In this document: one piece after another, positions 2,888 to 57,271 of the stretch
Position numbering within the stretch: position 1 is the stretch's first letter
How the letters are laid out: each line of letters opens with the position of its first letter
Source of the DNA: Limibacillus halophilus
GTDB lineage: Bacteria > Pseudomonadota > Alphaproteobacteria > Kiloniellales > CECT-8803
Reading direction: 5' to 3'
DNA length: 64,000 bases
Assembly: GCF_014191775.1 (NCBI RefSeq)
Contig: NZ_JACHXA010000010.1
Coordinates: 1-64,000 of the forward strand
Notes under the pieces: model-generated
Told to the model about the DNA's origin: nothing
Seen by the model: only the letters and a program-made list of their open reading frames with translations
Database searches by the model: none
Made by a program: the position numbers and the translations under genes

Positions 2888-3853
2888 TCAACGAAACAGA
2901 CTGGAGACCGAGCGTTCGTGGCTGATCCGATCGATCGCATCACCCAACAACGGAGCGATGGTGATCTGACGAACATTGTGCGCCAAGCGCACGGCCTCGG
3001 TCGCCTGGATGCTGTCGGTCGTCACCAACTCCTTCATCGGAGAGGAGGAAACACGTGCAACCGCACCGCCGGACAGCACCCCGTGGGTAACATAGGCGGA
3101 AACGGATTCTGCACCGGCCTCCATCAGCGCCACGGCCGCGTTGCACAGTGTCCCGGCGGAATCGACAATATCGTCCACCAGCAGGCAACGGCGTCCTTTT
3201 ACGTCGCCGATGATGTTCATGACCTCGGACACCCCGGCCCGTTCGCGGCGCTTATCGATGATTGCAAGCTCTACGTCAAGACGTCTTGCAATATCGCGCG
3301 CGCGGACGACGCCGCCGACGTCTGGTGAAACGATCATCAGATTGTCGGTTCCGTAATTGTCGGTGATGTCTTTGGTAAAGACCGGAGCGGCGTAGAGGTT
3401 GTCAGTAGGAATGTCGAAAAAACCCTGAATCTGACCGGCATGAAGATCGAGTGTCAGCACGCGATGTGCCCCGGCGCTGGTGATCAGGTTCGCAACGAGT
3501 TTCGCTGAGATCGGCGTTCTGGGGCCCGATTTTCGGTCCTGCCTGGCGTAGCCGTAGTAAGGCAACACCGCCGTGATGCGCCGAGCCGATCCGCGCTTGA
3601 GCGCGTCCAGTGCTACCAGCAATTCCATCAGGTTGTCGTTTGCCGGGTGGCAGGTCGACTGTACGAAGAACACGTCCTCGCCACGAACATTCTCGTTGAT
3701 TTCAACGAAAACCTCCTGGTCGGAAAAGCGCTTCACACTGGCCTTGGTCAGCGGAAGGTTCAAATAGGCCGAAATTGCCTCTGCCAAAGGCCGGTTCGAA
3801 TTACCCGTCAGAATCTTGTAGGGTCGGGTTGCCGCGCTGCTGCCATCGCTCAT
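2888..3853 (-). CDS. prs: Ribose-phosphate pyrophosphokinase (PRPP synthetase)
   Basis: The enzyme makes phosphoribosyl pyrophosphate from ribose 5-phosphate and ATP, feeding purine, pyrimidine, His and Trp synthesis. Diagnostic blocks are the ATP-binding region with [45 protein letters not shown], and the PRPP loop [11 protein letters not shown] around residue 230. The frame is open for 23 codons upstream, but the ATG at 3853 ([13 protein letters not shown]) gives 321 residues, close to the usual 310-320, and AGAGAGG lies upstream. The longer form would add a Gly-rich leader unlike the family. Confidence 0.96.
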
Positions 3854-4045
3854 GCCGCCGCCGAATGCCTCTCTCTTGCTGAAATCCCCGCCTGTACCGC
3901 CCGCCCCAATAAGGTCACCCAATGAGTGGCACGCCGGTCGAGCGCGGCGGACTTTAGCAACCTACCCCGGCCCTGTAAACGTTCTGTCATATGTTACCTG
4001 GAAAGGCGGTCCTTGCCGAGCCGGGCGACCGTACCGCACGGTGCC

Positions 4046-4897
4046 TCACTGTCCCGACGGAATCTGATAAAGTAGGTCGACCAAGCCCGCCACTGCGGCT
4101 TCCGCGATGAGCGGCGCCACTTGCGTCCAGGGCCCATCCAGGCTGCCGGCCCGAACCTGATCGCCTTGCTCGATCTTGCCCAAAGACCGCCCTTGTGGGT
4201 CTTGTACGTCCCAGGTAACGACGACCTGCTGAAGGCCCGCCGATGGCGTGCCCAACCGCACGGTACCGACAACCTTCAGATCGTCGGGCCGCATATCCTC
4301 GACCGACGCCACCGGAAGAGACGCCTGCTGGAGCGCAACGGTCAAGGCCAAGGGCAACAGTTCGCCCGCGTTGCCGGGAGCCCGCGCTATCGGCGCGACC
4401 ACCAGACGGCCGCCCGGGCGGCCGGGTAATCCGCCACCCGTTTGCACCGGGGCAATGATCGGCATCAGCAGATGCGCTGCCTGCTGGGCTATAGAATCCA
4501 CCACGTCGGGATCGCCCGCGATCAAATCGGCACCTCTGCCGTCCATCATCTGCGGTTCTGCCCGTAACGGACCGATTTGCGCGTCAGAAACCTTCCAAAC
4601 GATTGCATTGCCGCGAAAACGACCTTCGACGATACGGCTTTCGATGTTGCCGGCTCCGGTGTCGACCGTCAGGCCCTGATCGATCAGAATCGCAGCCAGG
4701 ACATCACGCGTTTGGATGGCAACCTCGGGTGGCAGGTTGGCAACCGGTCGCACGACGATCGTCGGGCTGACCGGTGGGCCGATCAAGGCCTGGTCCTCTT
4801 GCTTTATCTGCGGTTGGAACGGCTTGGGTAGCGGACCGCATGCTTGCAGCAGGGCAAGGCTCAAGACCAGAACCACAGGAAAAAATCTCGGCATCAT
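4046..4897 (-). CDS. Predicted outer/periplasmic lipoprotein, function unknown
   Basis: This is a 283-residue secreted lipoprotein. Starting at the ATG at 4897, a short signal peptide (MMPRFFPVVLVLSLALLQAC) ends in a lipobox LQA-Cys20. The mature part is rich in beta-type segments and repeats Val/Pro/Gly, with two similar-looking halves; I recognise no enzyme motif. The start is fixed by context: its ATG overlaps the TGA of a 22-codon ORF (bases 4894-4897 read ATGA on the coding strand), so translation is probably coupled. The frame stays open upstream to a TTG at 4978, but that would bury the signal peptide. It is the last gene of the lgt-pgeF run. Alternative function: an envelope assembly or trafficking factor; unproven. 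Confidence 0.75.
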   Translation of the reverse strand: MMPRFFPVVLVLSLALLQACGPLPKPFQPQIKQEDQALIGPPVSPTIVVRPVANLPPEVAIQTRDVLAAILIDQGLTVDTGAGNIESRIVEGRFRGNAIVWKVSDAQIGPLRAEPQMMDGRGADLIAGDPDVVDSIAQQAAHLLMPIIAPVQTGGGLPGRPGGRLVVAPIARAPGNAGELLPLALTVALQQASLPVASVEDMRPDDLKVVGTVRLGTPSAGLQQVVVTWDVQDPQGRSLGKIEQGDQVRAGSLDGPWTQVAPLIAEAAVAGLVDLLYQIPSGQ

Positions 4898-4962
4898 AGG
4901 AGAACGCAGGTCGCCAGTCCGCCGAGCAGCAGCAAACCGCAAAAGAAAATCAGATGAGGCAT
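4894..4962 (-). CDS. 22-residue hydrophobic small ORF coupled to the lipoprotein gene
   Basis: The strand reads GGGAGG, eight bases, then an ATG at 4962 and 22 codons: MPHLIFFCGLLLLGGLATCV followed by two Leu and TGA. The Shine-Dalgarno site is the best in this part of the operon, and the lipoprotein gene downstream has none of its own. The stop overlaps the next ATG as ATGA. The peptide is one hydrophobic segment with two Cys, resembling a single-pass membrane micropeptide. It may simply be a leader that sets translation of the lipoprotein. It lies 25 bases after the stop of the M24-family gene. I know no named family for it. Confidence 0.55.
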   Translation of the reverse strand: MPHLIFFCGLLLLGGLATCVLL

Positions 4963-4987
4963 GCCTGCAGCCTCCCAAGGCGTCTGT

Positions 4988-6142
4988 TCAGCCGCCGACG
5001 ATCAAGTCTAGCGGACGATGCGACAGCGATTGAGGTCCAGCATCGCCGATCAACGAGGTTCTGCCCAGCGTCATCGCCAGCCCTGCATCGTCGTCGAAGA
5101 TGATGATGTGAACAAAAAACACCATGCCCGCCCGCAAAACCACCGGATTGCCGTGATAAAGCATTGGCCAGTCCATCCAGTTCGGACTGAAGGTGGTGCC
5201 CAGGGAATATCCGCAAGCGTTCATGCGGTGCGCTTGGAAACCTGCCTTGTCCAGCACAGCGGCATGGGCGTCGAATGCTTCGCCGACGGTGTTGCCCGGC
5301 ACCAGCTTCGCCTCGACGGCCAGCAGGGCATCGCGCGCCACGGCATGCATTTCGCGCTGGCGCGCCGGCACCTTCCCAACAACCGCCGTATGCATCATCG
5401 CGGCGTGATAGTGACGATAGGCACCCGCCCATTCGAGGGTCAGTTGGTCCTGTTGAGAAAGCACGCGCCGGCCGGAATAGTAACGGCACAGCAAGGCCTG
5501 CTCGGCCGATCCGATAATGAACTCGTTGCCCGGGTAATCGCCGCCTCCACGGAAGACCTCGCCCTGCATGGCTGCCAGGATATCGCTTTCGTCACCGCCG
5601 GGCCGTATAAGGGGAATCGCCGCTTCCACGGCCGCATCGGCAAGCTCGCCGGCACGTCGTACATAGTCGATCTCGCGTGCGCTTTTCACGACCCTCTGCC
5701 GGTTCACCAGATCCGACGCGTCGACCAGTTTGCAAAAGCCGTCCAGCGCAGCCTCAAGCCGCTTTCCGTTACGCGCGGTCAGGCCATAGGCCTCGTATTC
5801 AACACCCAGGGTTTTACCCGAAAGGCCAAGCTCCTGAAGGATTCCCTTCAACGCCTCAGCCGGACGCGCGTCAGGGACATCAACCCAGACACGCACATCC
5901 TTTATGATCGATGTTTGCTGGGCCTGCCGCAAATCGGGCGCCCGCGTCAGCAGAACCATACGGCCGTCCGCGCCCAGATAGAGGCATTGGAAAAAGACAT
6001 ACCCGAAGGTGTCGTAACCGGTCAGGTAGAACATGGTTTCCTGACGGAAGATCAGCAGGCCGTGGAGACCTTCGTCAGACATGGCTTCGATGGCTCGGGC
6101 ACGCCGACCCGCAAGCTCTTCTTCACTAAAGTGCAGGTGCAT
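4988..6142 (-). CDS. M24/creatinase-fold protein lacking all metal ligands (annotated style: Xaa-Pro peptidase family)
   Basis: The 384 residues have the two-domain layout of creatinase/aminopeptidase P proteins: an N-terminal domain to about 155, then a pita-bread domain. The five metal ligands of M24 peptidases are missing. The usual DxG reads W238-A-G, the second Asp (SDxTRT) is Ala248, the GHGIG His is Tyr312, the EPG Glu position is His345, and the last Glu is absent. Metal-independent members exist (creatinase; ectoine hydrolase DoeA/EutD), and the segment CGYSLGTTFSPNW recalls what I remember of DoeA-like proteins. It is therefore more likely an amidinohydrolase/ectoine-hydrolase relative than a peptidase. 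It starts 2 bases after pgeF. Fold is certain; substrate unknown. Confidence 0.8.
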   Translation of the reverse strand: MHLHFSEEELAGRRARAIEAMSDEGLHGLLIFRQETMFYLTGYDTFGYVFFQCLYLGADGRMVLLTRAPDLRQAQQTSIIKDVRVWVDVPDARPAEALKGILQELGLSGKTLGVEYEAYGLTARNGKRLEAALDGFCKLVDASDLVNRQRVVKSAREIDYVRRAGELADAAVEAAIPLIRPGGDESDILAAMQGEVFRGGGDYPGNEFIIGSAEQALLCRYYSGRRVLSQQDQLTLEWAGAYRHYHAAMMHTAVVGKVPARQREMHAVARDALLAVEAKLVPGNTVGEAFDAHAAVLDKAGFQAHRMNACGYSLGTTFSPNWMDWPMLYHGNPVVLRAGMVFFVHIIIFDDDAGLAMTLGRTSLIGDAGPQSLSHRPLDLIVGG

Positions 6143-7004: not shown

Positions 7005-8117
7005 CTAGGACGCAAAGGGTGCCGGTGCTGCGTGTCCGGCCTGCGTTATAGCAAGCACCTTGAATAGCTCACCCATCTCCTCAGGACTCATGAGGCGGGT
7101 CAAGGCGGAATCGATATCCTGCCGTTGCCGCTCATCGGCGTGACGACGCAGGGCCTCAGCCCGAATCTCCAAGCCCATGGCCTGCAGGAATGCGCCTTGC
7201 GTTACTGGGCCAAAGGCAGCAGCACCCGCGGTTTCGGCGGCATCGATAAGGCTGGCGAAATCCACATGCGCCGTGAGATCGGCGCTGCCCGGCTCCACAA
7301 GAGGATCGTGCGGGCGATGCCCGCGCACCGCTTGGAGCGTCGCGCCGTATGACGGATGCTGGCGGCCGTAATCGATGAAGAGGGCCGCGCCGCCTTGCAG
7401 GACCAGACGCTGCGCCAAGCTGCGAACAAGCGACACTGCAATCGGTGAAACCTCCGCCAGCACACCCAAGGGCGCGTCATGAAGCGCCGGAGGAATGAAC
7501 GCGGGCGCCGATGGGCTCAACGGACCGAGAAGAAAAACGAACCTTTCGCCGCTATCATCCAGCCCGATCAACCGTTCACGCCAGCCATCCTCGCACTTCT
7601 CGTAATGCCGCACCGGCAATGCATCGAGAAACTCGTTTCCGATGATCACGAGCGGCGCATCTTCCGGGAGCGAGGAAAGCTCGCCATGCCAGGTTACATC
7701 CCAGTTCTTCAGGGTTTTCTTTTGCGCCTTGCGGAGCGCCGGACTGACTTCGACAAGGTGAACTTCAGCGGCTTCGGCCAACCCCGGCAACACCGACGCC
7801 GCCCGCAACAGATCGGACATCAGCGTGCCGCGTCCCGGTCCAACTTCCGCCAGGATGAAACGCTTGGGCCCGTCTAGCACGCGTTGCCACAGATCGGCGC
7901 ACCAGAGCCCAACCATCTCGCCAAACATTTGGCTGACCTCGGGCGCCGTAATGAAATCCCCGGATACGCCGAAGGGATCGTCGGTCATGTAATAGCCGCC
8001 ACTGGGATCGGTCAGCACGGCGGCCATGTAATCGGCCAGGCTTATCGGTCCCTCCAGGGCAATCCGCCGCTTGAGCCGATAAGTTAGGTTGTGATTGCGC
8101 TTACCGCTCATGCGCAC
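7005..8117 (-). CDS. SAM-dependent methyltransferase of the MidA/NDUFAF7 family
   Basis: The 370-residue protein belongs to the DUF185/MidA group. In mitochondria the relative NDUFAF7 dimethylates an Arg of complex I subunit NDUFS2; the bacterial substrate is inferred to be similar. The SAM site is LAEVGPGRGTLMSDLLRA near residue 90, followed by VHLVEVSP, and IIGNEFLDALPVRHY is the typical family block. The N-terminus PISLADYMAAVLTDPSGGYY is also diagnostic. The frame starts with GTG at 8117, overlapping lgt by 17 bases; an ATG at 8111 is equally possible. It is the second gene of the lgt operon. Confidence 0.92.
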   Translation of the reverse strand: MRMSGKRNHNLTYRLKRRIALEGPISLADYMAAVLTDPSGGYYMTDDPFGVSGDFITAPEVSQMFGEMVGLWCADLWQRVLDGPKRFILAEVGPGRGTLMSDLLRAASVLPGLAEAAEVHLVEVSPALRKAQKKTLKNWDVTWHGELSSLPEDAPLVIIGNEFLDALPVRHYEKCEDGWRERLIGLDDSGERFVFLLGPLSPSAPAFIPPALHDAPLGVLAEVSPIAVSLVRSLAQRLVLQGGAALFIDYGRQHPSYGATLQAVRGHRPHDPLVEPGSADLTAHVDFASLIDAAETAGAAAFGPVTQGAFLQAMGLEIRAEALRRHADERQRQDIDSALTRLMSPEEMGELFKVLAITQAGHAAPAPFAS

Positions 8118-8928
8118 TCGTCGGCGCCGACGCGCGCTGTTGACGTAGGCTCCAAACCGCCAACCCCAGGCCGCAAACCAGCATCGGCAAGGATAGGATT
8201 TGCCCCATCGTCAGCCCCCCGACCAGGAAACCGATATGCGCATCGGGCTCACGGAAGAACTCGGCAATCAAGCGGCCCAGGCCATAACCCGCGAGAAAGA
8301 TGCCTGAAATGACGCCGGGCTTGGCGAGCGATCCGCTCCGGACCAATAGCAGCAGAAGGATGAAAAGAATCAGACCTTCCATACCGGCTTCGTAGAGCTG
8401 GCTTGGATGGCGGGGCAGCGGTCCGCCGCCAGGAAAAACGACCCCCCAGGCAACATCGGTCGGACGTCCGTACAGCTCGCCGTTGATGAAGTTCGCAATC
8501 CGGCCGAAGAAAAGGCCGATAGGCGCTACGAAAGCGATCAGGTCGGAAAGCGCAAAGAGCGGCAGGCCGCGTTTCCAGGCAAACAGGATAATTGCCATAA
8601 CCACGCCGAGCATACCGCCGTGGAAAGACATTCCCCCCTGCCAGACCATGAAGATCTTCCCTGGGTTCTCAAAAAAGAAAATGGGATTGTAGAACAATAC
8701 GTAGCCGAGACGGCCACCCAGCAGCACACCCAGAGTCGCCCAGAACACAAAATCGTCGAAGACCTGCGTTGTCAGCGCCTTGCTGGGGGAGAGCTTGGTC
8801 ATGCGCAAACACACGCGCCAACCAAGGATCAGCCCGGCGATGTAGGCCAAGGCGTACCAACGGATCGCGATAGGTCCGATCTCGATGGCAATGGGATCTA
8901 TCTGCGGGAAGGCTAAGGCAAACATCAT
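8101..8928 (-). CDS. lgt: Prolipoprotein diacylglyceryl transferase
   Basis: Lgt transfers diacylglycerol from phosphatidylglycerol to the lipobox Cys of prelipoproteins in the inner membrane. About seven hydrophobic segments are visible. The family signature GRIANFINGELYGRPTD is present, as are WQGGMSFHGGMLG (with the functional His region) and PSQLYEAGMEG. I use the ATG at 8928 (275 residues); a TTG two codons earlier is possible. It leads a minus-strand operon and is preceded by a good promoter match. A lipoprotein gene closes the same run, a nice but possibly accidental pairing. Confidence 0.95.
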   Translation of the reverse strand: MMFALAFPQIDPIAIEIGPIAIRWYALAYIAGLILGWRVCLRMTKLSPSKALTTQVFDDFVFWATLGVLLGGRLGYVLFYNPIFFFENPGKIFMVWQGGMSFHGGMLGVVMAIILFAWKRGLPLFALSDLIAFVAPIGLFFGRIANFINGELYGRPTDVAWGVVFPGGGPLPRHPSQLYEAGMEGLILFILLLLLVRSGSLAKPGVISGIFLAGYGLGRLIAEFFREPDAHIGFLVGGLTMGQILSLPMLVCGLGLAVWSLRQQRASAPTSAHER

Positions 8929-8989
8929 GAGCAATCGGCTTTCTCTTGCTTCAACGACCTGGCGGCCGCCATCCAGGACACTCGCCGCC

Positions 8990-9019
8990 CTTATAGTCCC
9001 CCCTCCCTGAAGGGGGCAA
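8990..9019 (-). promoter_or_regulatory. Predicted sigma-70 promoter of the lgt operon
   Basis: On the minus strand TTGCCC (9019-9014) and TATAAG (8995-8990) are separated by 18 bases, a fair housekeeping match. Transcription would start near 8983, giving a leader of about 55 bases before lgt. The spacer contains a short G/C inverted repeat (AGGGGG against CCCCC, 8998-9016). Confidence 0.5.
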
Positions 9020-9084
9020 GGGAAGCGCTCGACCGAATGTCGGCTTCAGTTGTGCCCAGGGTACGCTTGGGGTAAGCAAACGCC

Positions 9085-48481: not shown

Positions 48482-49408
48482 TCAGGCCGGCACCGTAAGG
48501 CGCACTCTGTGCTCTGAAAGGCTGACGCTGACCGGTGTCATGCCGATACTGTCGCCGTCAGCCTGTACTGGTTGACCGATCGGGCTGGTTACACGTAATT
48601 CATCGAACGCGATGACCTTGAGATCGCTGCGCCGGAATAGCTTTCCCGCCAACAAAGCCGCCCCATAGCTTAGCACCGCCATGGGGCCACGGCGGGTAAA
48701 GAGGCACGCTTGAAGTTTCGGTGCCGAGAGACCCGCTGCGGGGGTGAGCAAATAATGACCGCCGTATCTTGAAGACCGAGCCGCGATGATGGCATGTGCC
48801 GTTTCCACCTTCCCGTCACGGACAACGGAGAAAGCTGGGTAAGCATATCGAAAAGCAAGCCGCAGCGATTCCCACACATAGGCACCCTTTCCCAACCTGC
48901 GCTTCAAATCGCTGGAAACCCGCGCTACAACCTCGGCATCGAACCCTACGCCCGCCATCAGAATAAAATAACGCTGTCCGCTGTTCCCAAAACGAACCTC
49001 GCCCAAACGCACCTCGCGAATGCCACCTTCCACAAGACAAGCGGCGATACCGGCGGCGGTTCGCGGCAGACCGATTTCAGCCGCCAGAACGTTTGCCGTT
49101 CCAAGCGGAATGATACCTATCTGCGGCCCGGCGTTGGTTATGCCTGATGCCGCCAGACCGTTCACCACCTCATGCACTGTGCCGTCACCACCGGCGACCG
49201 CAAGGCGAACGACACCGCTGGCAAGCGCTTCGAGCGCCAGGCGTTCTGCATCCCCAGGGCCTGCAGTCGTTCGCAGTTCGACCCGCCAACCAAGCTGTTC
49301 AAGTGCGGCGAGGACTGACGAAAGTCGCCGACCGTGGCGCTGGCCGGCAGAGGGATTGTAGATAACGGGCAGGACACGAGTAGTGCTCGCCTTGAAGCTT
49401 TTCGACAA
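48482..49408 (-). CDS. Diacylglycerol kinase-like lipid kinase
   Basis: This is a 308-residue lipid kinase of the DagK/YegS fold. The nucleotide-binding motif GGDGT is at 73-77 with VHEVVNGL after it, and PLGTANVLAAEIGLP follows. It probably phosphorylates diacylglycerol or a related lipid. Translation starts at TTG (49408) after AAGGAA. It is divergent from the phosphoesterase-glycosyltransferase pair, both of which should also use diacylglycerol or its precursors, so the three may balance that pool. Confidence 0.88.
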   Translation of the reverse strand: MSKSFKASTTRVLPVIYNPSAGQRHGRRLSSVLAALEQLGWRVELRTTAGPGDAERLALEALASGVVRLAVAGGDGTVHEVVNGLAASGITNAGPQIGIIPLGTANVLAAEIGLPRTAAGIAACLVEGGIREVRLGEVRFGNSGQRYFILMAGVGFDAEVVARVSSDLKRRLGKGAYVWESLRLAFRYAYPAFSVVRDGKVETAHAIIAARSSRYGGHYLLTPAAGLSAPKLQACLFTRRGPMAVLSYGAALLAGKLFRRSDLKVIAFDELRVTSPIGQPVQADGDSIGMTPVSVSLSEHRVRLTVPA

Positions 49409-49452
49409 TATAGATTCCTTTAAAAAACCTGCTGATTACTAATAAATCCTTC

Positions 49453-49470
49453 ATGTCATTTCTGTTTCAT
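49453..49470 (+). promoter_or_regulatory. Candidate Pho box upstream of the phosphoesterase-glycosyltransferase pair
   Basis: ATGTCAT-TTCT-GTTTCAT has the 7-4-7 layout with an 11-base period expected of PhoB sites (consensus CTGTCAT repeats), and a weaker third unit AAGTCAA follows at 49475. The repeats point toward the plus-strand genes, starting about 90 bases before the start at 49559. I found no clear -10 at the standard distance, so the call is provisional. Confidence 0.5.
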
Positions 49471-49558
49471 TTCAAAGTCAACGGGGTGAAGTTTCCTCGA
49501 TTTCAGCTCAATAAAATTGACGTATGACAATACTTTCCTGATAAGCGGCAGGAAGGGC

Positions 49559-50443
49559 ATGGCCACCCGACTGAACAAGAGGAAAGGGTCCGAAAGAGGC
49601 ATGGTTGCAACCCGCAGCGAACCTGACAATCCGACCAAGTCACGTCAATATCGCACCATTTTCCTTTCTGATATTCACCTCGGCACGCGTGGTTGCCAAG
49701 CGGAATATCTGCTCGACTTCCTGAAGCACAATGATGCGGAAATTATTTATCTAGTCGGCGATATCATCGATGGCTGGCGGCTGAAACGCTCTTGGTACTG
49801 GCCGCAAAGCCATAACGATGTGGTGCAGAAGTTACTCCGCAAGGCACGAAAAGGGGCAAAGCTCGTGTATGTGCCGGGCAATCACGACGAGGCGCTGCGA
49901 CAGTATATCGGTGTCCATTTTGGCGGAGTCGTCGTGGCGCAGGACATGATCCACACCACCGCCGACGGCAAGCGCCTACTCGTAATGCACGGCGATGCCT
50001 TCGACGGTGTGGTACGCTACGCGCGCTGGTTGGCGCTACTGGGTGACAGCGCATACACGCTGGCCCTGACCGTCAACACCTGGTTCAACTTCGCACGCCG
50101 GAAACTGGGCCTCGGATATTGGTCGCTGTCGGCTTATCTGAAGAACAAGGTAAAAAACGCCGTGAAGTTCGTCGATAGCTTCGAGCGTGCCGTCGCGCAA
50201 GAAGCGCGGAGGCGCGGCGTCGATGGCGTTGTTTGCGGCCACATCCACAAGGCTGAGATGCGGACTATCGGTGATATCCTCTACATCAACGATGGAGACT
50301 GGGTCGAAAGCTGCACGGCACTTGTGGAACACCATGATGGTCGCTTGGAGATCATAGCCTGGGCCGAACAGCGTAACTTTTCGATGCTTGAACGTCGGGT
50401 CGATCCGTCACCACCGGACCACGACACGGAGCTTGCCGCCTGA
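49559..50443 (+). CDS. plcP: Calcineurin-like phosphoesterase, predicted PlcP phospholipase C
   Basis: This metallophosphoesterase carries DxH (LSDIHLG), GDxxD (LVGDIIDGW), GNHDE, and the two late His blocks VMHGDAFD and CGHIHKAEM, all metal ligands. Such proteins are often named UDP-2,3-diacylglucosamine diphosphatase, but the pairing with a GT4 glycosyltransferase overlapping by one base (TGATG) is that of PlcP-Agt. PlcP hydrolyses phospholipids to diacylglycerol in phosphate-starved rhizobia and roseobacters. A Pho-box-like repeat lies upstream. The ATG at 49559 follows AGGA; 49601 is an alternative. LpxH-type lipid A activity is the alternative. Confidence 0.75.
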   Translation: MATRLNKRKGSERGMVATRSEPDNPTKSRQYRTIFLSDIHLGTRGCQAEYLLDFLKHNDAEIIYLVGDIIDGWRLKRSWYWPQSHNDVVQKLLRKARKGAKLVYVPGNHDEALRQYIGVHFGGVVVAQDMIHTTADGKRLLVMHGDAFDGVVRYARWLALLGDSAYTLALTVNTWFNFARRKLGLGYWSLSAYLKNKVKNAVKFVDSFERAVAQEARRRGVDGVVCGHIHKAEMRTIGDILYINDGDWVESCTALVEHHDGRLEIIAWAEQRNFSMLERRVDPSPPDHDTELAA

Positions 50444-51447
50444 TGCGCCTCCTCATTATCAGCGATGCCTGGTATCCGCAGATCAATGGCGTCGTCCGAA
50501 CATTACAGCGCCTGCAAAAGGAGTTGCTGGAACTGGGGCACGATGTGGAGGTAATACATCCAGGCCAGTTCAGAACCTTACCTTGTCCTACTTACCCGGA
50601 GATACGGCTTGCGATCTTCCCTCGCCGCCAGGTCGGACGTCATATTGCCCGGTTCGCGCCGGAGGCGATTCATATCGCGACCGAGGGGCCTTTGGGCTTG
50701 GCGGCACGGCGCTACTGTCTGAGAAACAAGCTACCTTTCACCACCTCATATCACACGCGGTTTCCAGAATATTTCGCCGAGCGCCTTCCTGTACCGCTCG
50801 ACTGGGTCTACGGCTTCGTACGCAGGTTTCACAACAGCGGCGTCGGAACCATGGTCGCTACCGCAAGCCTGAGACAGGAGCTGACCGAGCGCGGTTTCAC
50901 ACGGGTTCAGCCCTGGACTCGCGGCGTCGACAGCTCGCTTTTCCGGCCGCTTCCGCCACCTGATATCGAATTTCCAAGGCCCGTCTTTCTCTCGGTGGGC
51001 CGTGTCTCGGTGGAAAAGAATTTGGAGGCCTTCCTCCGCCTTGACCTCCCCGGCAGCAAGGTTGTCATCGGCGACGGCCCTCACCGGGCGACTCTTGAGC
51101 GACGTTTTCCCGGAGCTCATTTCCTCGGCGCTAAGGAGGGCGAGGACCTTGCCCGCCACTATGCGCTCGGCGATGTGTTTGTTTTTCCCAGTCGAACCGA
51201 TACTTTCGGCTTAGTTCTCCTCGAAGCGCTCGCGTGCGGTCTGCCGATCGCCGCTTATCCGGTACCCGGCCCATTGGATGTCGTCGGGGACAGCCCTGCC
51301 GGAATACTGGATGAGGACTTGCGCACTGCCTGCATCAAAGCGCTCGATGTTTCGAAAGATGACTGCCTCAACCACGCCAAAGACTTCTCCTGGCAGACCT
51401 GCACCGAACAATTCATCAGTAATCTGAAACCCCAAGCCACGGCCTAG
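50443..51447 (+). CDS. agt: GT4-family glycosyltransferase, predicted diacylglycerol glycosyltransferase (Agt)
   Basis: This is a 334-residue GT-B enzyme. GVVRTLQRLQKELLELGHDV near the start and the C-terminal donor site SRTDTFGLVLLEALACGLP with its EX7E-type motif mark the GT4 family. Its overlap with the PlcP-like gene supports a function in making glycolipids from diacylglycerol in place of phospholipids. A role in LPS or capsule assembly is the alternative, as an LPS gene block starts just downstream. Confidence 0.75.
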   Translation: MRLLIISDAWYPQINGVVRTLQRLQKELLELGHDVEVIHPGQFRTLPCPTYPEIRLAIFPRRQVGRHIARFAPEAIHIATEGPLGLAARRYCLRNKLPFTTSYHTRFPEYFAERLPVPLDWVYGFVRRFHNSGVGTMVATASLRQELTERGFTRVQPWTRGVDSSLFRPLPPPDIEFPRPVFLSVGRVSVEKNLEAFLRLDLPGSKVVIGDGPHRATLERRFPGAHFLGAKEGEDLARHYALGDVFVFPSRTDTFGLVLLEALACGLPIAAYPVPGPLDVVGDSPAGILDEDLRTACIKALDVSKDDCLNHAKDFSWQTCTEQFISNLKPQATA

Positions 51448-51503: not shown

Positions 51504-53327
51504 TTGCGAGTGACAGAACAATCGGATAGTGCGGCGTGTCCCCAAGGTAGACTGCGGGGGGCGCGACCGGAACATAGCAAACGTTTGATTGCACGGCTGC
51601 TGCGCGGCTATCTGCATGACCAGATCGGGCGTCTGGCTGTCGGTTTCGTTTGCATGGGATTGGTCGCCGTTACTACCGCTGCTTTCACGCAGCTCATCAA
51701 ACCCATTGTTGACGAAATCTTCCTACACCAGGACTCGGATCTGCTGCTTCCAATTGCGGGGTTCACGCTGGCCGTCTTTGCCATCAAAGGTTTGGCCAGC
51801 TATGGCGAAGCGGTCTTGATGAACAAGGTTGGCCTGAGCATTGTCGCGGCCCTGCAAAAGCAGCTTTATGGCCGCTTGGTCGGCGCGGATCTGGCGTTTT
51901 ACAACGAAACCGCGCCGGGCAGCCTGATCTCGCGATTCATCAATGATGTGACCTTGTTGCGCACGGCCGTCACGCAATCGGTCACCGGCGTCGGCAAGGA
52001 CCTTCTGACCGCTGCTGCCTTGGTCGCCGTCATGTTTTACGAGGACTGGCTTCTCGCCAGTATCGCTTTTTTCGCTTTCCCCTTGGCGATCTTCCCTATC
52101 GTGCGGATCGGCAGGCGGATGCGGAAGGTTTCCAGGCGGTCGCAAACCGAAGTGGGTCGTCTTTCCAGTCTGTTGGACGAAACCTTCCAAGGCATCCGGC
52201 ACGTCAAGGCTTACGGCATGGAACGCTACGAGGAGGCCCGTGCCGGTGCCGCCATCGACGAGGTCTACCGCCTCAATCTCAAGGCCGAGCAGACGCGAAA
52301 CCTGTTGCATCCGATCATGGAGATGCTGGGCGGTCTGGCCATCGTCGCGGTCTTACTCTACGGCGGCTATACGGTCATCGACGGCGACCGCACGCCTGGT
52401 AGCTTTTTTGCCTTCATATTTGCCCTGCTGCTGGCCTACGAGCCGGTCAAGCGCCTTGCCCGGCTGAACTCCAAGCTGCAGGAGGGGCTCGCCGCGGCGG
52501 AACGTATTTTCGATATCCTCGACCGCCAGCCGGAAATCCGCGACCGCAATGAGGCCAAGCCGCTGCGGTTGGATCAGGGCGCCATCGCCTTCCGGGATGT
52601 AAGCTTCGGATACCACCCCGGCCAATCGGCTCTGACCGATCTGTCTCTTGAGATACCAGGGGGCTCGCGCGTCGCACTTGTCGGATCCTCGGGGGCCGGG
52701 AAATCAACGATCCTCAACCTAATACCGAGGTTCTACGATCCCGATTCCGGGCAGGTTCTGATCGACGGACAGAACATTCGAGACGTTCAGCTTGCCTCCC
52801 TACGCAAGAACATCGCCCTGGTCAGTCAAGAGATCGTGCTGTTTGACGACACCGTCGGCATGAACATTGCCTACGGCAGTCCCGACGCCACCCCCGAACA
52901 GATCACAGCGGCGGCGGCAGCGGCGGGCGCCACGGATTTCATTGAAGCCTTGCCCGATGGTTACGATACGTTGATCGGCCCACGCGGGGCCAAGCTGTCG
53001 GGCGGTCAAAGGCAACGGATTGCCATCGCCCGCGCGTTATTGAAGAACGCACCGATCCTGTTGTTGGACGAAGCGACCTCGGCTTTGGATAGCGAAACCG
53101 AACGTGCCGTGCAGGAAGCGCTTGAGAGTTTGATGAAAGGCCGCACAACCCTGGTGATCGCCCATCGTCTTTCAACCGTCATCGGCGCCGACCAAATCGT
53201 CGTGCTGGACGCCGGCCGGGTCGTGGAGCGCGGTCATCACGAGGCGCTGCTCGCGAAAGGCGGAAGCTATGCACAGCTCTACCGAGCACAGTTCGCCGAA
53301 GCGAGCGGGAACAGTGATCGCTCATGA
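51504..53327 (+). CDS. msbA: MsbA-like lipid exporter, ABC transporter ATP-binding/permease
   Basis: This half-transporter of 607 residues has six helices in its N-terminal half and an ATPase in the C-terminal half: Walker A GSSGAGKST near residue 395, LSGGQRQRIAIARALL, Walker B LLLDEATSALD, and H-loop AHRLSTV. MsbA flips lipid A-core across the inner membrane, and the overlapping run DUF374-kdtA-lpxK-lpxL behind it supports that job. The start may be the TTG at 51504 or the GTG at 51510. Confidence 0.88.
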   Translation: MRVTEQSDSAACPQGRLRGARPEHSKRLIARLLRGYLHDQIGRLAVGFVCMGLVAVTTAAFTQLIKPIVDEIFLHQDSDLLLPIAGFTLAVFAIKGLASYGEAVLMNKVGLSIVAALQKQLYGRLVGADLAFYNETAPGSLISRFINDVTLLRTAVTQSVTGVGKDLLTAAALVAVMFYEDWLLASIAFFAFPLAIFPIVRIGRRMRKVSRRSQTEVGRLSSLLDETFQGIRHVKAYGMERYEEARAGAAIDEVYRLNLKAEQTRNLLHPIMEMLGGLAIVAVLLYGGYTVIDGDRTPGSFFAFIFALLLAYEPVKRLARLNSKLQEGLAAAERIFDILDRQPEIRDRNEAKPLRLDQGAIAFRDVSFGYHPGQSALTDLSLEIPGGSRVALVGSSGAGKSTILNLIPRFYDPDSGQVLIDGQNIRDVQLASLRKNIALVSQEIVLFDDTVGMNIAYGSPDATPEQITAAAAAAGATDFIEALPDGYDTLIGPRGAKLSGGQRQRIAIARALLKNAPILLLDEATSALDSETERAVQEALESLMKGRTTLVIAHRLSTVIGADQIVVLDAGRVVERGHHEALLAKGGSYAQLYRAQFAEASGNSDRS

Positions 53328-54031
53328 AGGTCTTGCTCGACAATCGGCAAATGCAAACCGCGGCAGGCTGGTGCGCCGGAATGCTCGTGCGCTTGCTGCG
53401 AGCCTCCCTGCGAAGCGAAGAGCATGTGCCTGAGGAAACCCGTAAAGTTCTGACTAGGCCGGGACCCGTAATCGGGTGTTTCTGGCATGGGCGCCTGCTC
53501 TCCCTCGTTGGACAGAGACAAGTTCCGCCGGAAGCTGTTGATTTTCTGGTATCGCCGCACCGCGATGGCCTGCTGCTATCGCGCGCCCTGGCGCGCCTCG
53601 GGTGCAAACCGCATTACGGATCGAGCAACCGGGACGGTGTCAAGGGTCTGCGGGCACTATTGCAGGCAGTCGGCGGCAAAGGGCGGATCGTCGCAATTAC
53701 GCCCGATGGCCCAAGAGGGCCGATCCAGCAAGCCAAGATCGGCGCCATCAAGCTGGCACAGCTTACCGGCGCACCCATCGTACCTCTGTCGGCCAGCGCC
53801 CGCTTCGGCCATCGTTTCACCTCGTGGGACCGCTTCTTGTTACCGCTGCCCTTTGCACGAGCCTATATTGCCTGGGGGGCGCCGATCGAGGTGCCGCGAA
53901 ACGCGAGCGACGCAGACCTTGAGAGATATCGTCTTGATTTGGAAACAAACTTGAACATGCTGACCGCAGAAGCGGATGCCGCGCTCGGCCATGACCCGGC
54001 GCCCCCTTCTCAAGGAGTTGACCCGCGCTGA
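53324..54031 (+). CDS. DUF374 (LPLAT-like acyltransferase superfamily) protein
   Basis: The 235-residue protein is a DUF374 member, related to lysophospholipid acyltransferases. The segment PVIGCFWHGRLLSLVG with VSPHRDGLLLSRAL gives the His and Asp expected of the HX4D region in this branch, and ITPDGPRGPIQQAKIGAI is the family signature. It overlaps msbA by 4 bases and kdtA by one, so it is part of lipid A/LPS assembly, with no known reaction. Confidence 0.87.
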   Translation: MKVLLDNRQMQTAAGWCAGMLVRLLRASLRSEEHVPEETRKVLTRPGPVIGCFWHGRLLSLVGQRQVPPEAVDFLVSPHRDGLLLSRALARLGCKPHYGSSNRDGVKGLRALLQAVGGKGRIVAITPDGPRGPIQQAKIGAIKLAQLTGAPIVPLSASARFGHRFTSWDRFLLPLPFARAYIAWGAPIEVPRNASDADLERYRLDLETNLNMLTAEADAALGHDPAPPSQGVDPR

Positions 54032-55329
54032 TGGACTGGACGTCGCTTTACCGCATTCTGACTGAACTCGGCGCGCCCATTATCCGCGGCATCCTTCGCC
54101 GGCGCCTTGCCAGGGGTCGCGAAGATCCCTTGCGATTCTCCGAACGCAAGGGGAAGCCGGGTTTACCGCGCCCTGCGGGACCGCTTCTTTGGCTTCATGC
54201 CGTGAGCATCGGCGAAGCGCAATCCGTCCTGACGCTGATCCGTTCGATCCGTGCGTTGTATCCCAATCTGGGGATGATCATGACCACCGGCACCGTCAGT
54301 TCGGCCCGCATCATGGCCGACCGTTTGCCTGCGGAAGTCATACATCAGTACGCACCTATCGACCGCTTGCCGTGGGTGCGGAACTTTCTTGTGCATTGGC
54401 GGCCTGACGCCGCGCTTTGGATCGAATCGGACCTTTGGCCGAATATCCTCATCGAATGTCGCCATGCAGGCATGCCGATGATGATGTTGAATGCCCGTGT
54501 TTCGGAGCGCTCTGCGAGGTTGTGGCGACTTCTGCCGGGGGCGTTGCGACCAGTACTCGAGGGTTTTCAACTTTGTCTGGCCCAAGACGAGGCCCAAGGC
54601 GACCGTCTGAAGTCACTTGGCGCAGCACGCGTCAAGGTCGTCGGCAATGTAAAGTACGCGGCCGACCCGCTGCCCTTCGACCCGGCTGAACTGGCAGGAT
54701 TGAAAGCCGCCATCGGCGATCGACCCATCTGGCTTGCCGCCTCGACCCACCAGGGTGAGGAGGAGATAGTGGCTCAAGTGCACCAGGCGCTGCTGCGGGA
54801 CCTCCCCAGGCTTATGACGATCATTGTGCCGCGACACCCGTCGCGCGCCGACAGTATCGCCGAAGCGCTCGACCGCCAGAACTTGGCGGTGGCACGACGC
54901 AGTCGTGGCGAGGTTCCGACAACTGAAACTGCCATTTATCTCGCAGATACCATTGGCGAACTGGGCCTTTTCTATCGCCTCTGCCGGATTGTATTCGTCG
55001 GCGGCAGCTTGATCCCCAGAGGTGGGCAGAACATGCTCGAGCCCGCCCGACTGGACTCCGCCCTGCTCCATGGTCCGAACTGCTGGAACTTCGCAATGAT
55101 TGCCAGGGCTCTCGACGCCTGCGGCGGCGCGCTTGAGGTTCGCGACGCTGGCGAGCTAAGCGCGCGCTTGAAAGTGCTGCTGCAGGACGAAAGTGAAAGC
55201 GCCAAGATGGCCGATGCAGCCAGCGCTCTGGCCAGGGAGGAGGCAAAAGTGCTTGGTCGCCTTCTCACTGAATTGGAGCCATTGCTCAGACCACTGGCGC
55301 AGGCAACCCCTTCACAGCCGGAGGCCTGA
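54031..55329 (+). CDS. waaA: 3-deoxy-D-manno-octulosonic acid transferase
   Basis: KdtA/WaaA adds Kdo to lipid IVA on the inner membrane. The 432 residues show the GT30 features: PLLWLHAVSIGEAQSVLTLI at the start, MTTGTVSSARIMADRLP, and the C-terminal FVGGSLIPRGGQNMLEPARL binding motif. Neighbours DUF374 and lpxK each share one base with it (TGATG), giving tight coupling. Confidence 0.95.
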   Translation: MDWTSLYRILTELGAPIIRGILRRRLARGREDPLRFSERKGKPGLPRPAGPLLWLHAVSIGEAQSVLTLIRSIRALYPNLGMIMTTGTVSSARIMADRLPAEVIHQYAPIDRLPWVRNFLVHWRPDAALWIESDLWPNILIECRHAGMPMMMLNARVSERSARLWRLLPGALRPVLEGFQLCLAQDEAQGDRLKSLGAARVKVVGNVKYAADPLPFDPAELAGLKAAIGDRPIWLAASTHQGEEEIVAQVHQALLRDLPRLMTIIVPRHPSRADSIAEALDRQNLAVARRSRGEVPTTETAIYLADTIGELGLFYRLCRIVFVGGSLIPRGGQNMLEPARLDSALLHGPNCWNFAMIARALDACGGALEVRDAGELSARLKVLLQDESESAKMADAASALAREEAKVLGRLLTELEPLLRPLAQATPSQPEA

Positions 55330-56309
55330 TGTCCCTGCGTGCACCACGGTTTTGGCAGTCCAGGGGTGCGATCTCCAGCGCGTTGCTGCCCGTTGCCTGG
55401 GCATACGGCGCCATCGCCACCTCTCGCTGGAGAAGGACAGAACCAATCGACTGTGGCTTACCGGTTATTTGCATCGGGAACCTGGAGGTCGGCGGCGCGG
55501 GGAAGACCCCGCTCGCTATCGACCTCCTGGTCAGGCTGCAAGCACGCGGCTTGAAGCCTTTCGCATTGACGCGCGGTTACGGCGGCAAGCGATCCGGTCC
55601 ATTGCTCGTCGATCCTGCGCGGCATGATTGGCGGCAAGTCGGCGACGAGGCGCGGCTCCTGGCGAGCCACGCGCCCACCATCGTCTCGGGCGACCGGGTG
55701 GCCGGCGCGCTACTCGCAAGGCAACAGGAAGCTGATATCATCGTCATGGACGACGGCTTCCAAAATCCAGGTCTCAAGAAAACTGCGTCACTTCTGGTCA
55801 TCGACGCCGATTATGGGCTGGGAAACGGCCGCTTGTTCCCCGCTGGACCTTTACGCGAGGCACCTGGCGCCGCCCTTGCCCGCTGTGATGCTGTTATCCT
55901 GGTCGGAGACAGCGGCGGTCTGCCGGATGAACTGAGCGGCACCTCACTCCCACTTTTCAAGGCTGCGATTCGAACCTTGAACAAGCCGCTTGATCTCAAG
56001 GGTCTGAGGGTCATCGCTTTCGCCGGAATCGGTCGACCTAAAAAATTCTTCGATGGGCTTCGCCGGATTGGGGCCGAATTGGTAAGCGCCGTCGCTTTTC
56101 CAGATCATCATCCCTACCGGGCGGCCGACCTTGCACTGATCCTGTCCAAGGCCGCTGACCTTGACGCATTGGCGGTTACCACCGAAAAAGACCGGCAACG
56201 CCTCGACCCGGAACTAGCCGAGAGGGTACTGGCGGTTCCGGCCGCTTTCATCTGGCAGCAAGAGGCTGAGATCGACGCGCTCCTCGACAGAATTCTGGAC
56301 GGGCAATGA
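55329..56309 (+). CDS. lpxK: Tetraacyldisaccharide 4'-kinase
   Basis: LpxK phosphorylates the 4' position of the lipid A disaccharide. The 326-residue protein has the P-loop in VGGAGKTP (residues 54-61), the catalytic ADIIVMDDGFQNP block, and VTTEKDRQRLDP near the end. It overlaps kdtA by one base and the acyltransferase gene by four. Confidence 0.95.
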   Translation: MSLRAPRFWQSRGAISSALLPVAWAYGAIATSRWRRTEPIDCGLPVICIGNLEVGGAGKTPLAIDLLVRLQARGLKPFALTRGYGGKRSGPLLVDPARHDWRQVGDEARLLASHAPTIVSGDRVAGALLARQQEADIIVMDDGFQNPGLKKTASLLVIDADYGLGNGRLFPAGPLREAPGAALARCDAVILVGDSGGLPDELSGTSLPLFKAAIRTLNKPLDLKGLRVIAFAGIGRPKKFFDGLRRIGAELVSAVAFPDHHPYRAADLALILSKAADLDALAVTTEKDRQRLDPELAERVLAVPAAFIWQQEAEIDALLDRILDGQ

Positions 56310-57271
56310 CGCCAACAAAAGTAAATCCGACGGGGTCAAAACTCTCGAAGTCGCCTGTGTCCGGACGACGGGGAGCCTTGCGTCTGTTGCAGCATGCCTT
56401 AGAGGTAACCGCTTTCCGGCTTTCGATGGGGTTGATGCGCCTCTTGCCGCTCGATGTCGCCTCTGCCCTAGGAGGGTTCCTAGGACGCACACTCGGTCCC
56501 TACAGCAACGCCAGTGAGCGCGCCGCCCGCAATCTGCGGCTGGTCTTTCCCGACATGCCGGACAGCGAGCGTCGGCGCATCACGCGCGCGGTGTGGGACA
56601 ATCTTGGTCGTCTCGGAGCTGAATACCCGCATCTTGCAGAGATTACGGACCCGCGAAGCGGACGCCTTGAATTACGCAACAGCGGCCCCGTTACGGATCA
56701 CGTCAAAAGCGGACGACCGGCGATTGTCGTTTCCGGGCATTTCGCCAACTTCGAAGCCATGCACGTTCGCGGCGCGCGGGAACTTGTCCGAACCGCCACT
56801 GTGGTACGCGACCCCAACAACCCGATGATCCGCGATGCGCTCGAGCATTTCCGCAAGGTCGGTGGCGGCGAGCGAGTCGGGAAAGGACACCAAGGCGCGC
56901 GCAGCCTGATTGCTTATCTGGAACGGAATTTCTGCCTCACCATGCTGGTAGACCAGCGGATGAATCGCGGCATCACCGCCGATTTCCTGGGGCACCCCGC
57001 GCAAACGCCGACAGCCGCCGCACAACTGGCATTGCGGTTTGACTGCCCGCTGGTCGTTGCCACCATGGAACGCAAGCGAGGGGCGCATTTCATAATGACC
57101 CTATCCGACTTGATCTGGAGCGAGCAGACCGTCGACCGGCATCAGGAAATCGCCCGATTGGTGGGAGAGATCAATCAACGACTGGGTACGGAAATCCGAC
57201 GCCGGCCCGAAAACTGGTTCTGGTTGCATCGACGTTGGAGCGAAGAGGTATATGCTCAAGCCGGGCTTTAA
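56306..57271 (+). CDS. lpxL: Lipid A biosynthesis lauroyl-type acyltransferase (LpxL/HtrB family)
   Basis: This membrane-bound acyltransferase adds a secondary acyl chain to lipid A. The HX4E motif is His145-x4-Glu150 (SGHFANFEAMH), and VDQRMNRGITADFLGHPAQT is typical of the family. The length is 321 residues, with a long N-terminal extension of about 25 residues. It is the last gene of the lipid A run and is convergent with the M23 gene. Confidence 0.92.
   Translation: MTPTKVNPTGSKLSKSPVSGRRGALRLLQHALEVTAFRLSMGLMRLLPLDVASALGGFLGRTLGPYSNASERAARNLRLVFPDMPDSERRRITRAVWDNLGRLGAEYPHLAEITDPRSGRLELRNSGPVTDHVKSGRPAIVVSGHFANFEAMHVRGARELVRTATVVRDPNNPMIRDALEHFRKVGGGERVGKGHQGARSLIAYLERNFCLTMLVDQRMNRGITADFLGHPAQTPTAAAQLALRFDCPLVVATMERKRGAHFIMTLSDLIWSEQTVDRHQEIARLVGEINQRLGTEIRRRPENWFWLHRRWSEEVYAQAGL

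Follow-up and report, generated by a model that had tools for sequence, protein, structure and literature searches.

Within the window, the 64,000-nucleotide stretch of Limibacillus halophilus DNA analysed here (positions 1 to 64,000 of contig NZ_JACHXA010000010.1), a gene for a PlcP-type metallophosphoesterase (49559..50443, forward strand) is followed by one for a predicted GT4 diacylglycerol glycosyltransferase, agt (50443..51447, forward strand), assigned by similarity and motifs. The stop codon of the first gene (TGA, 50441-50443) and the ATG of the second (from 50443) overlap by one base. The phosphoesterase start is ambiguous, with candidates at TTG 49517, ATG 49559 (preceded directly by GGAAGG) and ATG 49601; under the 49559 reading, the alignment with relatives sets in near residue 27. 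The pair stands at the head of a lipid A block (51504..57271, forward strand) with genes for an MsbA-like exporter and a DUF374 protein, waaA, lpxK and lpxL-like genes. On the other side lies, on the reverse strand and with a TTG start, a gene for a YegS/BmrU/DgkB-type lipid kinase (48482..49408), a probable diacylglycerol kinase by its Pfam domains. The gap between the divergent genes contains a PhoB-site-like repeat (49453..49481, strand unassigned) made up of three 7-base units, one every 11 bases. All elements of the layout from which the original prediction set out, namely the one-base overlap, the upstream PhoB-like repeat with its 11-bp period and the divergent YegS/DgkB-type kinase, are present in the sequence as described.

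Identity of the phosphoesterase and the glycosyltransferase

The phosphoesterase is 57% identical over 257 columns to a Sinorhizobium meliloti protein from record CP090106, the gene of which lies near those for an acyl-homoserine-lactone synthase and a LuxR regulator, in what we take to be the characterised PlcP locus beside sinI/sinR. Identity to Pseudomonas aeruginosa PlcP is 55% over 248 columns, and to Escherichia coli LpxH 24% over 124 residues. On the LpxH model NF003743 (cut-off 134 bits), the window protein scores 49.6 bits, the S. meliloti protein 38.1 and P. aeruginosa PlcP 55.1, against 364.3 for E. coli LpxH; a second LpxH model, with a cut-off of 190.35, gives 43.1 bits for the window protein and 388.9 for E. 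coli LpxH. In a midpoint-rooted tree of 33 rows, in which the order within PlcP is mostly unresolved and the long branches (L247 and E. coli LpxH) meet, six LpxH proteins, five of them taken from genomes also carrying PlcP, split off at 100/100, and the window protein groups with those of S. meliloti and P. aeruginosa rather than with LpxH. When eight genomes bearing plcP were searched with the LpxH model, five, all betaproteobacterial by their locus titles, had a separate LpxH above the cut-off; L. halophilus itself encodes an LpxI and has a single PlcP match. The alignment of the phosphoesterase with 13 relatives contains conserved blocks, and D38, H40, D68, N108, H144, H228 and H230, presumably the metal ligands of the metallophosphoesterase, are invariant across eight rows that include E. 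coli LpxH.

An LpxH acting in lipid A synthesis would suit the downstream block with its waaA, lpxK and lpxL-like genes, and would agree both with the weak match to the LpxH model and with the public annotation of most relatives on plasmid records, among the matches listed, as UDP-2,3-diacylglucosamine diphosphatase. We nevertheless reject this identity on sequence and regard it as very improbable, given the score far beneath the cut-off, the fully supported split in the tree, the LpxI already in the genome and the relatives that have lipid A blocks without this phosphoesterase gene. The evidence supports PlcP, a predicted phospholipase C acting on phospholipids, which is how the original prediction had read the enzyme, and the common diphosphatase annotation of its relatives is misleading.

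Several related proteins and records stood out during these comparisons. One relative carries a second PlcP paralogue, 45% identical (G015:C1:2985787-2986563). On plasmid pRsa of Fuscovulum blasticum (L247), the gene for a distant PlcP-like protein (36%) is followed by an annotated ceramide glucosyltransferase, a VTT-domain protein and a glycosyltransferase, possibly another glycolipid cassette. The 3.7-Mb S. meliloti record CP090106.1 (L244) is labelled plasmid pSymB, although by size and content it looks like a chromosome under the wrong label.

The GT4 enzyme and the P. aeruginosa glycosyltransferase encoded downstream of PlcP, which is taken as Agt1 from its gene position (PMC8528852), share 52% identity across 327 aligned columns. 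The window enzyme carries H104, D253, GRVSVEKN and FPSRTDTFG, and these reproduce the His104-Asp256 dyad and both UDP-sugar motifs (GRVAXEKN and FPSXTDTFG) described for the SAR11 enzyme (PMC8231724), with S replacing A in the first motif. The proposed Agt-type activity is borne out by this identity and these published motifs, and the pair is identified by homology as plcP-agt.

The closest described arrangement is the 'type 2' plcP-agt of Sebastian et al. 2015, with the same gene order and families and with putative Pho boxes in plcP clusters (PMC4796936). The window differs from it in the divergent lipid kinase, in the lipid A block that follows and in a site that reads better toward the kinase under a local matrix; the main text of that paper never uses the word kinase. 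In P. aeruginosa, plcP-agt1 (PA3219-PA3218) likewise places a phospholipase before a GT4 enzyme, at 55% and 52% identity, respectively, and its Pho box, given in the form CTGTCATNNNNCTGTCAT, resembles the window repeat (PMC8528852); unlike in the window, no lipid kinase is annotated in the 8.7-kb stretch compared, and the Pho-like site faces plcP. The plcP-agt of Methylosinus trichosporium OB3b, compared by description rather than by sequence, is an operon of the same two families, a mutant of the strain loses glucuronosyl-diacylglycerol, and 'diacylglycerol kinase' is absent from the main text of the report (PMC9239053). The pathway as such is already established (PMC4796936, PMC9239053, PMC8528852 and PMC8231724); what we add is its well-supported occurrence in this lineage, to which an experimentally established means of saving phosphate is extended.

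Distribution of plcP-agt and of the kinase

Among 58 genomes of the order, PlcP matches at E<=0.001 occur in 30, of which 27 (counted by eye) reach E<1e-100 and three (G006, G025 and G040) are partial or weak. In a scan of named genomes, from which the best 80 of 572 confirmed stretches were analysed, agt lies within 400 bp after plcP in 72 of the 80 loci, and the eight misses include contig ends; agt has been described as the gene most commonly observed near plcP (PMC4796936). Of the 27 genomes of the order in which plcP reaches E<1e-100, 15 have a divergent kinase adjoining it, as do 29 of the 76 named loci with a readable upstream region (from the best 80 of 572). Culturable relatives with this arrangement include Azospirillum brasilense (L191) and Nitrospirillum amazonense (L180). 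Counted by eye at E<1e-100 for plcP and E<1e-50 for the kinase, the 58 genomes comprise 24 with both genes, 3 with plcP only, 12 with the kinase only and 19 with neither, and the 12 kinase-only genomes, out of 36 with the kinase, are devoid of any plcP match.

We inspected 16 kinase loci not beside plcP, representing 11 of the 12 kinase-only genomes and 5 of the 9 genomes in which kinase and plcP lie apart; a seventeenth (L249) was excluded from the count for its adjacent plcP. An MsbA-like gene is found directly beside the kinase, within 0.5 kb, in 9 of the 16. Twelve of the 16 share pmbA or msbA with the window's block as a neighbour; in two of these msbA is some 3 kb away, and one (L254) has agt but no plcP. 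The other four have none of pmbA, msbA and agt close by in the stretch. Thus distributed, plcP-agt is an optional cassette at a chromosomal place that also exists without it. At L254 (G005:C13:61500-76000), a relative of agt (60%; 8053-9039) stands directly beside the kinase and pmbA in a genome without a plcP match, and no significant Pho-like site accompanies it, leaving a glycosyltransferase without its usual supplier of diacylglycerol.

Pho-like sites upstream of plcP

The first two units of the window repeat, ATGTCAT-TTCT-GTTTCAT (49453-49470), match the E. coli consensus CTGTCAT-N4-CTGTCAT at 11 of 14 positions, and a weaker third unit, AAGTCAA (49475-49481), continues in register to give a 29-bp three-repeat. 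Sites of this quality (up to three mismatches, both strands) number 193 genome-wide, against 108 for the reversed pattern; at about one such site per 18 kb, chance occurrence in a 150-bp gap amounts to roughly 0.5-0.8%. We also built a 29-bp matrix from the pstS promoters of 24 relatives, excluding L. halophilus itself, and derived p-values from 100 dinucleotide shuffles. Under this matrix, the window region reaches p=0.04, with the best site on the minus strand: the repeat scores 8.7 bits in the minus reading and -7.1 in the plus reading, the orientation that the E. coli consensus favours. The genome's own pstS box, outside the training set, scores 31.2 bits, and its phoR box, with 12 of 14 matches to the E. 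coli consensus, only 10.0 bits. TIGR00975 was dropped as a PstS model (matches in 14 of 58 genomes, and none in L. halophilus); as it serves this group poorly, PstB and PhoB models were used instead, and the L. halophilus proteins lie above the cut-offs of both. No sigma-70 consensus promoter was found in 49380-49640.

Conservation of the repeat at plcP in relatives, as expected of the Pho box originally proposed, receives statistical support. A site at p<=0.05 on either strand precedes plcP in 35 of 45 loci with an adjacent kinase and in 45 of 64 without one. Control regions taken from these loci have such a site in 12 of 52 cases (6/21 at msbA, 5/21 at pmbA, 0/3 at ubiD and 1/7 at M23), a rate that exceeds the nominal tenth and marks the shuffle p-values as liberal. 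At the 16 kinases away from plcP, no Pho-like site reaches p<=0.05 in whichever direction it is read; the minimum is 0.055 (L256). With the broadest of four half-site patterns, pairs spaced 11 bp apart occur 10 and 6 times on the two strands of kinase-adjacent loci, against means of 0.9 and 0.6 at other spacings; in loci without the kinase the signal is weaker (4 and 2 pairs), and the three stricter patterns yield just 0-3 pairs, too rare to judge. Near-copies were removed for the direction and half-site counts (45 of 45 and 62 of 64 loci kept) and not elsewhere; L010 and L163, with identical values, are probably one genome.

Could the repeat in the window be a product of chance, or a site for another regulator, with plcP-agt expressed constitutively here? 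Such a reading draws on the frequency of 11-of-14 sites in the genome, on the p of 0.04 for the window alone and on the dozen control regions that pass the same threshold. It has to contend, however, with the enrichment of this site class upstream of plcP across families, with the lack of significant sites at all 16 separate kinases and with the preference for 11-bp pairing in kinase-adjacent loci, and we consider it improbable. By itself the window's site is weak to moderate, and it is the enrichment in relatives that makes a PhoB-like reading convincing.

The direction of the sites is a separate matter. Where the kinase adjoins plcP, the better reading points toward the kinase in 37 of 45 loci (23.2 expected from shuffles), and where it does not, toward plcP in 44 of 62; both strands are enriched in both sets, in line with half-sites that are partly self-complementary. 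Reverse-facing sites also occur at plcP genes with a different divergent neighbour (L264 and L265). The search for a -10 element gave no clue to the direction in which PhoB would act. The pstS control gave a mean score of 3.7 at offset 21; in the kinase loci (24 of 45 used), scores reached at most 2.7 on the plcP side (offset 6) and 2.1 on the kinase side, over backgrounds of about 1.9 and 1.6, and loci lacking the kinase (15 of 64 used) gave 2.3, at offset 10. Neither side of the box showed a signal like that of the control. A guess of upstream gene direction from codon usage was likewise abandoned as noisy, calling 7 of the 45 kinase loci 'tandem' wrongly and leaving the site direction unaccounted for. 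The orientation of the site where the kinase adjoins plcP is the one detail that stays unexplained.

Two further sites deserve mention. At L264 (G038), the open reading frames divergent from plcP (3099-5114) resemble what we take to be phosphonate genes (PhnN-like, HD and DUF1045-like), and another presumed phosphate-regulated unit may share the intergenic region with plcP there. A three-unit Pho-like repeat, CCGGCAT-TTTT-CTGTCAT-TGAT-GTTTCAT, lies near a contig end (G000:C6:223562-223590, end of L126), where the last 650 bases contain no closed open reading frame of 100 amino acids, frames running off the contig being unlisted.

Taken together, these observations lead us to read the locus, with a probability of about 0.82, as a predicted plcP-agt lipid-remodelling operon, an optional cassette between a lipid kinase and a lipid A block, with a kinase that is probably not a dedicated part of it. 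The computed basis of this reading consists of the protein families, the similarity to reference enzymes, the gene order and the site enrichment. Under low phosphate, PhoB would bind the repeat between kinase and plcP, and PlcP, by analogy with its characterised relatives, would remove the phosphate head group of membrane phospholipids to leave diacylglycerol. With a UDP-sugar as donor, Agt would then attach glucose, galactose or glucuronic acid to form phosphorus-free glycolipids, and the phosphate released by PlcP could be reused. Such a kit would let the cell replace phospholipids of its membrane by sugar lipids during phosphate shortage. Counting against the remodelling operon are the marginal p of the window site, the missing sigma-70 consensus and pstS-like -10 element, and the better site orientation away from plcP in kinase-adjacent loci. 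The genome lacks a BtaA match and has an Acetyltransf_5 (OlsB-type) domain and two PAP2-family genes; these family matches suggest that ornithine lipids and other sources of diacylglycerol may exist alongside the glycolipids.

The divergent kinase and the diacylglycerol pool

The kinase combines the Pfam domains DAGK_cat and YegS_C and scores 118.9 bits on TIGR00147, just above the cut-off of 118.65; its nearest solved relatives are DgkB (2qv7, the best), BmrU and YegS. With the soluble DgkB/YegS lipid kinases (2qv7 and 2bon) it has in common the fold family, the GGDGT motif and a similar length, and it is distant from them, as the TIGR00147 score barely over the cut-off indicates, with the match in substrate being presumed. 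L. halophilus has no DgkA match and one further weak kinase-like match (E=1.7e-4). Across genomes, DgkA and the kinase are not complementary, the kinase (E<1e-50, counted by eye) being present in 11 of 16 genomes with DgkA and in 25 of 42 without. The enzyme is most likely a general diacylglycerol-to-phosphatidate kinase of the soluble DgkB/YegS type. The original prediction therefore had the family right by Pfam, TIGR00147 and DgkB, but its suggestion that the kinase could feed diacylglycerol back to phosphatidate is still a conjecture: it has a precedent in Pseudomonas putida (PMC5082522), against which stand the 12 genomes with a kinase and no plcP and the 16 separate kinases without a site.

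If the kinase nonetheless worked as part of the module, it would be set together with plcP-agt by PhoB binding between the genes. Either co-induction would channel excess diacylglycerol back into phosphatidate, or repression would keep diacylglycerol from being wasted. Several patterns are in keeping with this: the divergent kinase beside plcP in 15 of 27 genomes and 29 of 76 named loci (from the best 80 of 572), a site orientation toward the kinase in 37 of 45 loci, and toward plcP in 44 of 62 without it, and the co-occurrence of the two genes (24 genomes with both against 3 with plcP only, 12 with the kinase only and 19 with neither), which is, however, confounded by descent. In P. putida BIRD-1, moreover, PlcP and DagK are both enriched under phosphate depletion, a response its authors call PHO-dependent (PMC5082522), and this also counts against the kinase being a mere bystander. 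Yet the list quoted from the same source names PlcP, and not DagK, among the proteins absent from a phoBR mutant, that DagK may be of either the YegS or the DgkA kind, and the passages describe a response with ornithine lipid enzymes and without a named agt, unlike the window pair. A dedicated kinase is also hard to reconcile with the kinase-only genomes, with the lack of a significant site at any of the 16 lone or separated kinases (9 of which adjoin msbA directly) and with the reverse-facing sites at plcP genes that have another divergent neighbour. These counts concern kinases away from plcP, and an adjacent kinase may still respond to phosphate. On balance, we regard a coupled kinase as a serious candidate but the less probable one.

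The preferred reading, an optional plcP-agt operon beside a probably independent kinase, accounts for these distributions differently. The site is enriched at plcP and not significant at the 16 kinases elsewhere, so that it appears to follow plcP, with the kinase looking like an older neighbour; the kinase is probably an older resident of this chromosomal spot than plcP-agt. It could use the same diacylglycerol pool, but a role dedicated to the module is improbable.

An elaboration of the coupled kinase that we consider unlikely, and put forward tentatively, is that in this alphaproteobacterial branch the single PhoB site separating the kinase gene from plcP works in both directions, as a switch at the diacylglycerol node. 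Under this scenario, plcP-agt, by settling beside the resident kinase, would have brought it under PhoB, which would then jointly set the breakdown of phospholipids, the synthesis of glycolipids and the conversion of diacylglycerol back into phosphatidate. The kinase would be either repressed to prevent futile cycling or induced to act as a relief valve. The scenario predicts that the site should face the kinase, as it does in 37 of the 45 adjacent loci, and that kinases elsewhere should have no significant one, as is the case for all 16. A kinase under the same PhoB site would make a simple branch point between the phospholipid and glycolipid fates.

The plcP literature searched yielded no description of a plcP gene that shares such a site with a divergent kinase gene, and none joining plcP with 'lipid kinase' by that term; plcP and dagK both appear in PMC13086504, and PMC8483787 proved unrelated, PLCP there denoting a plant peptidase. 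In one relative, roughly 2.5 kb separate a DgkA gene (G014:C113:24295-24597) from the YegS-type kinase, and roughly 3.6 kb separate it from plcP.
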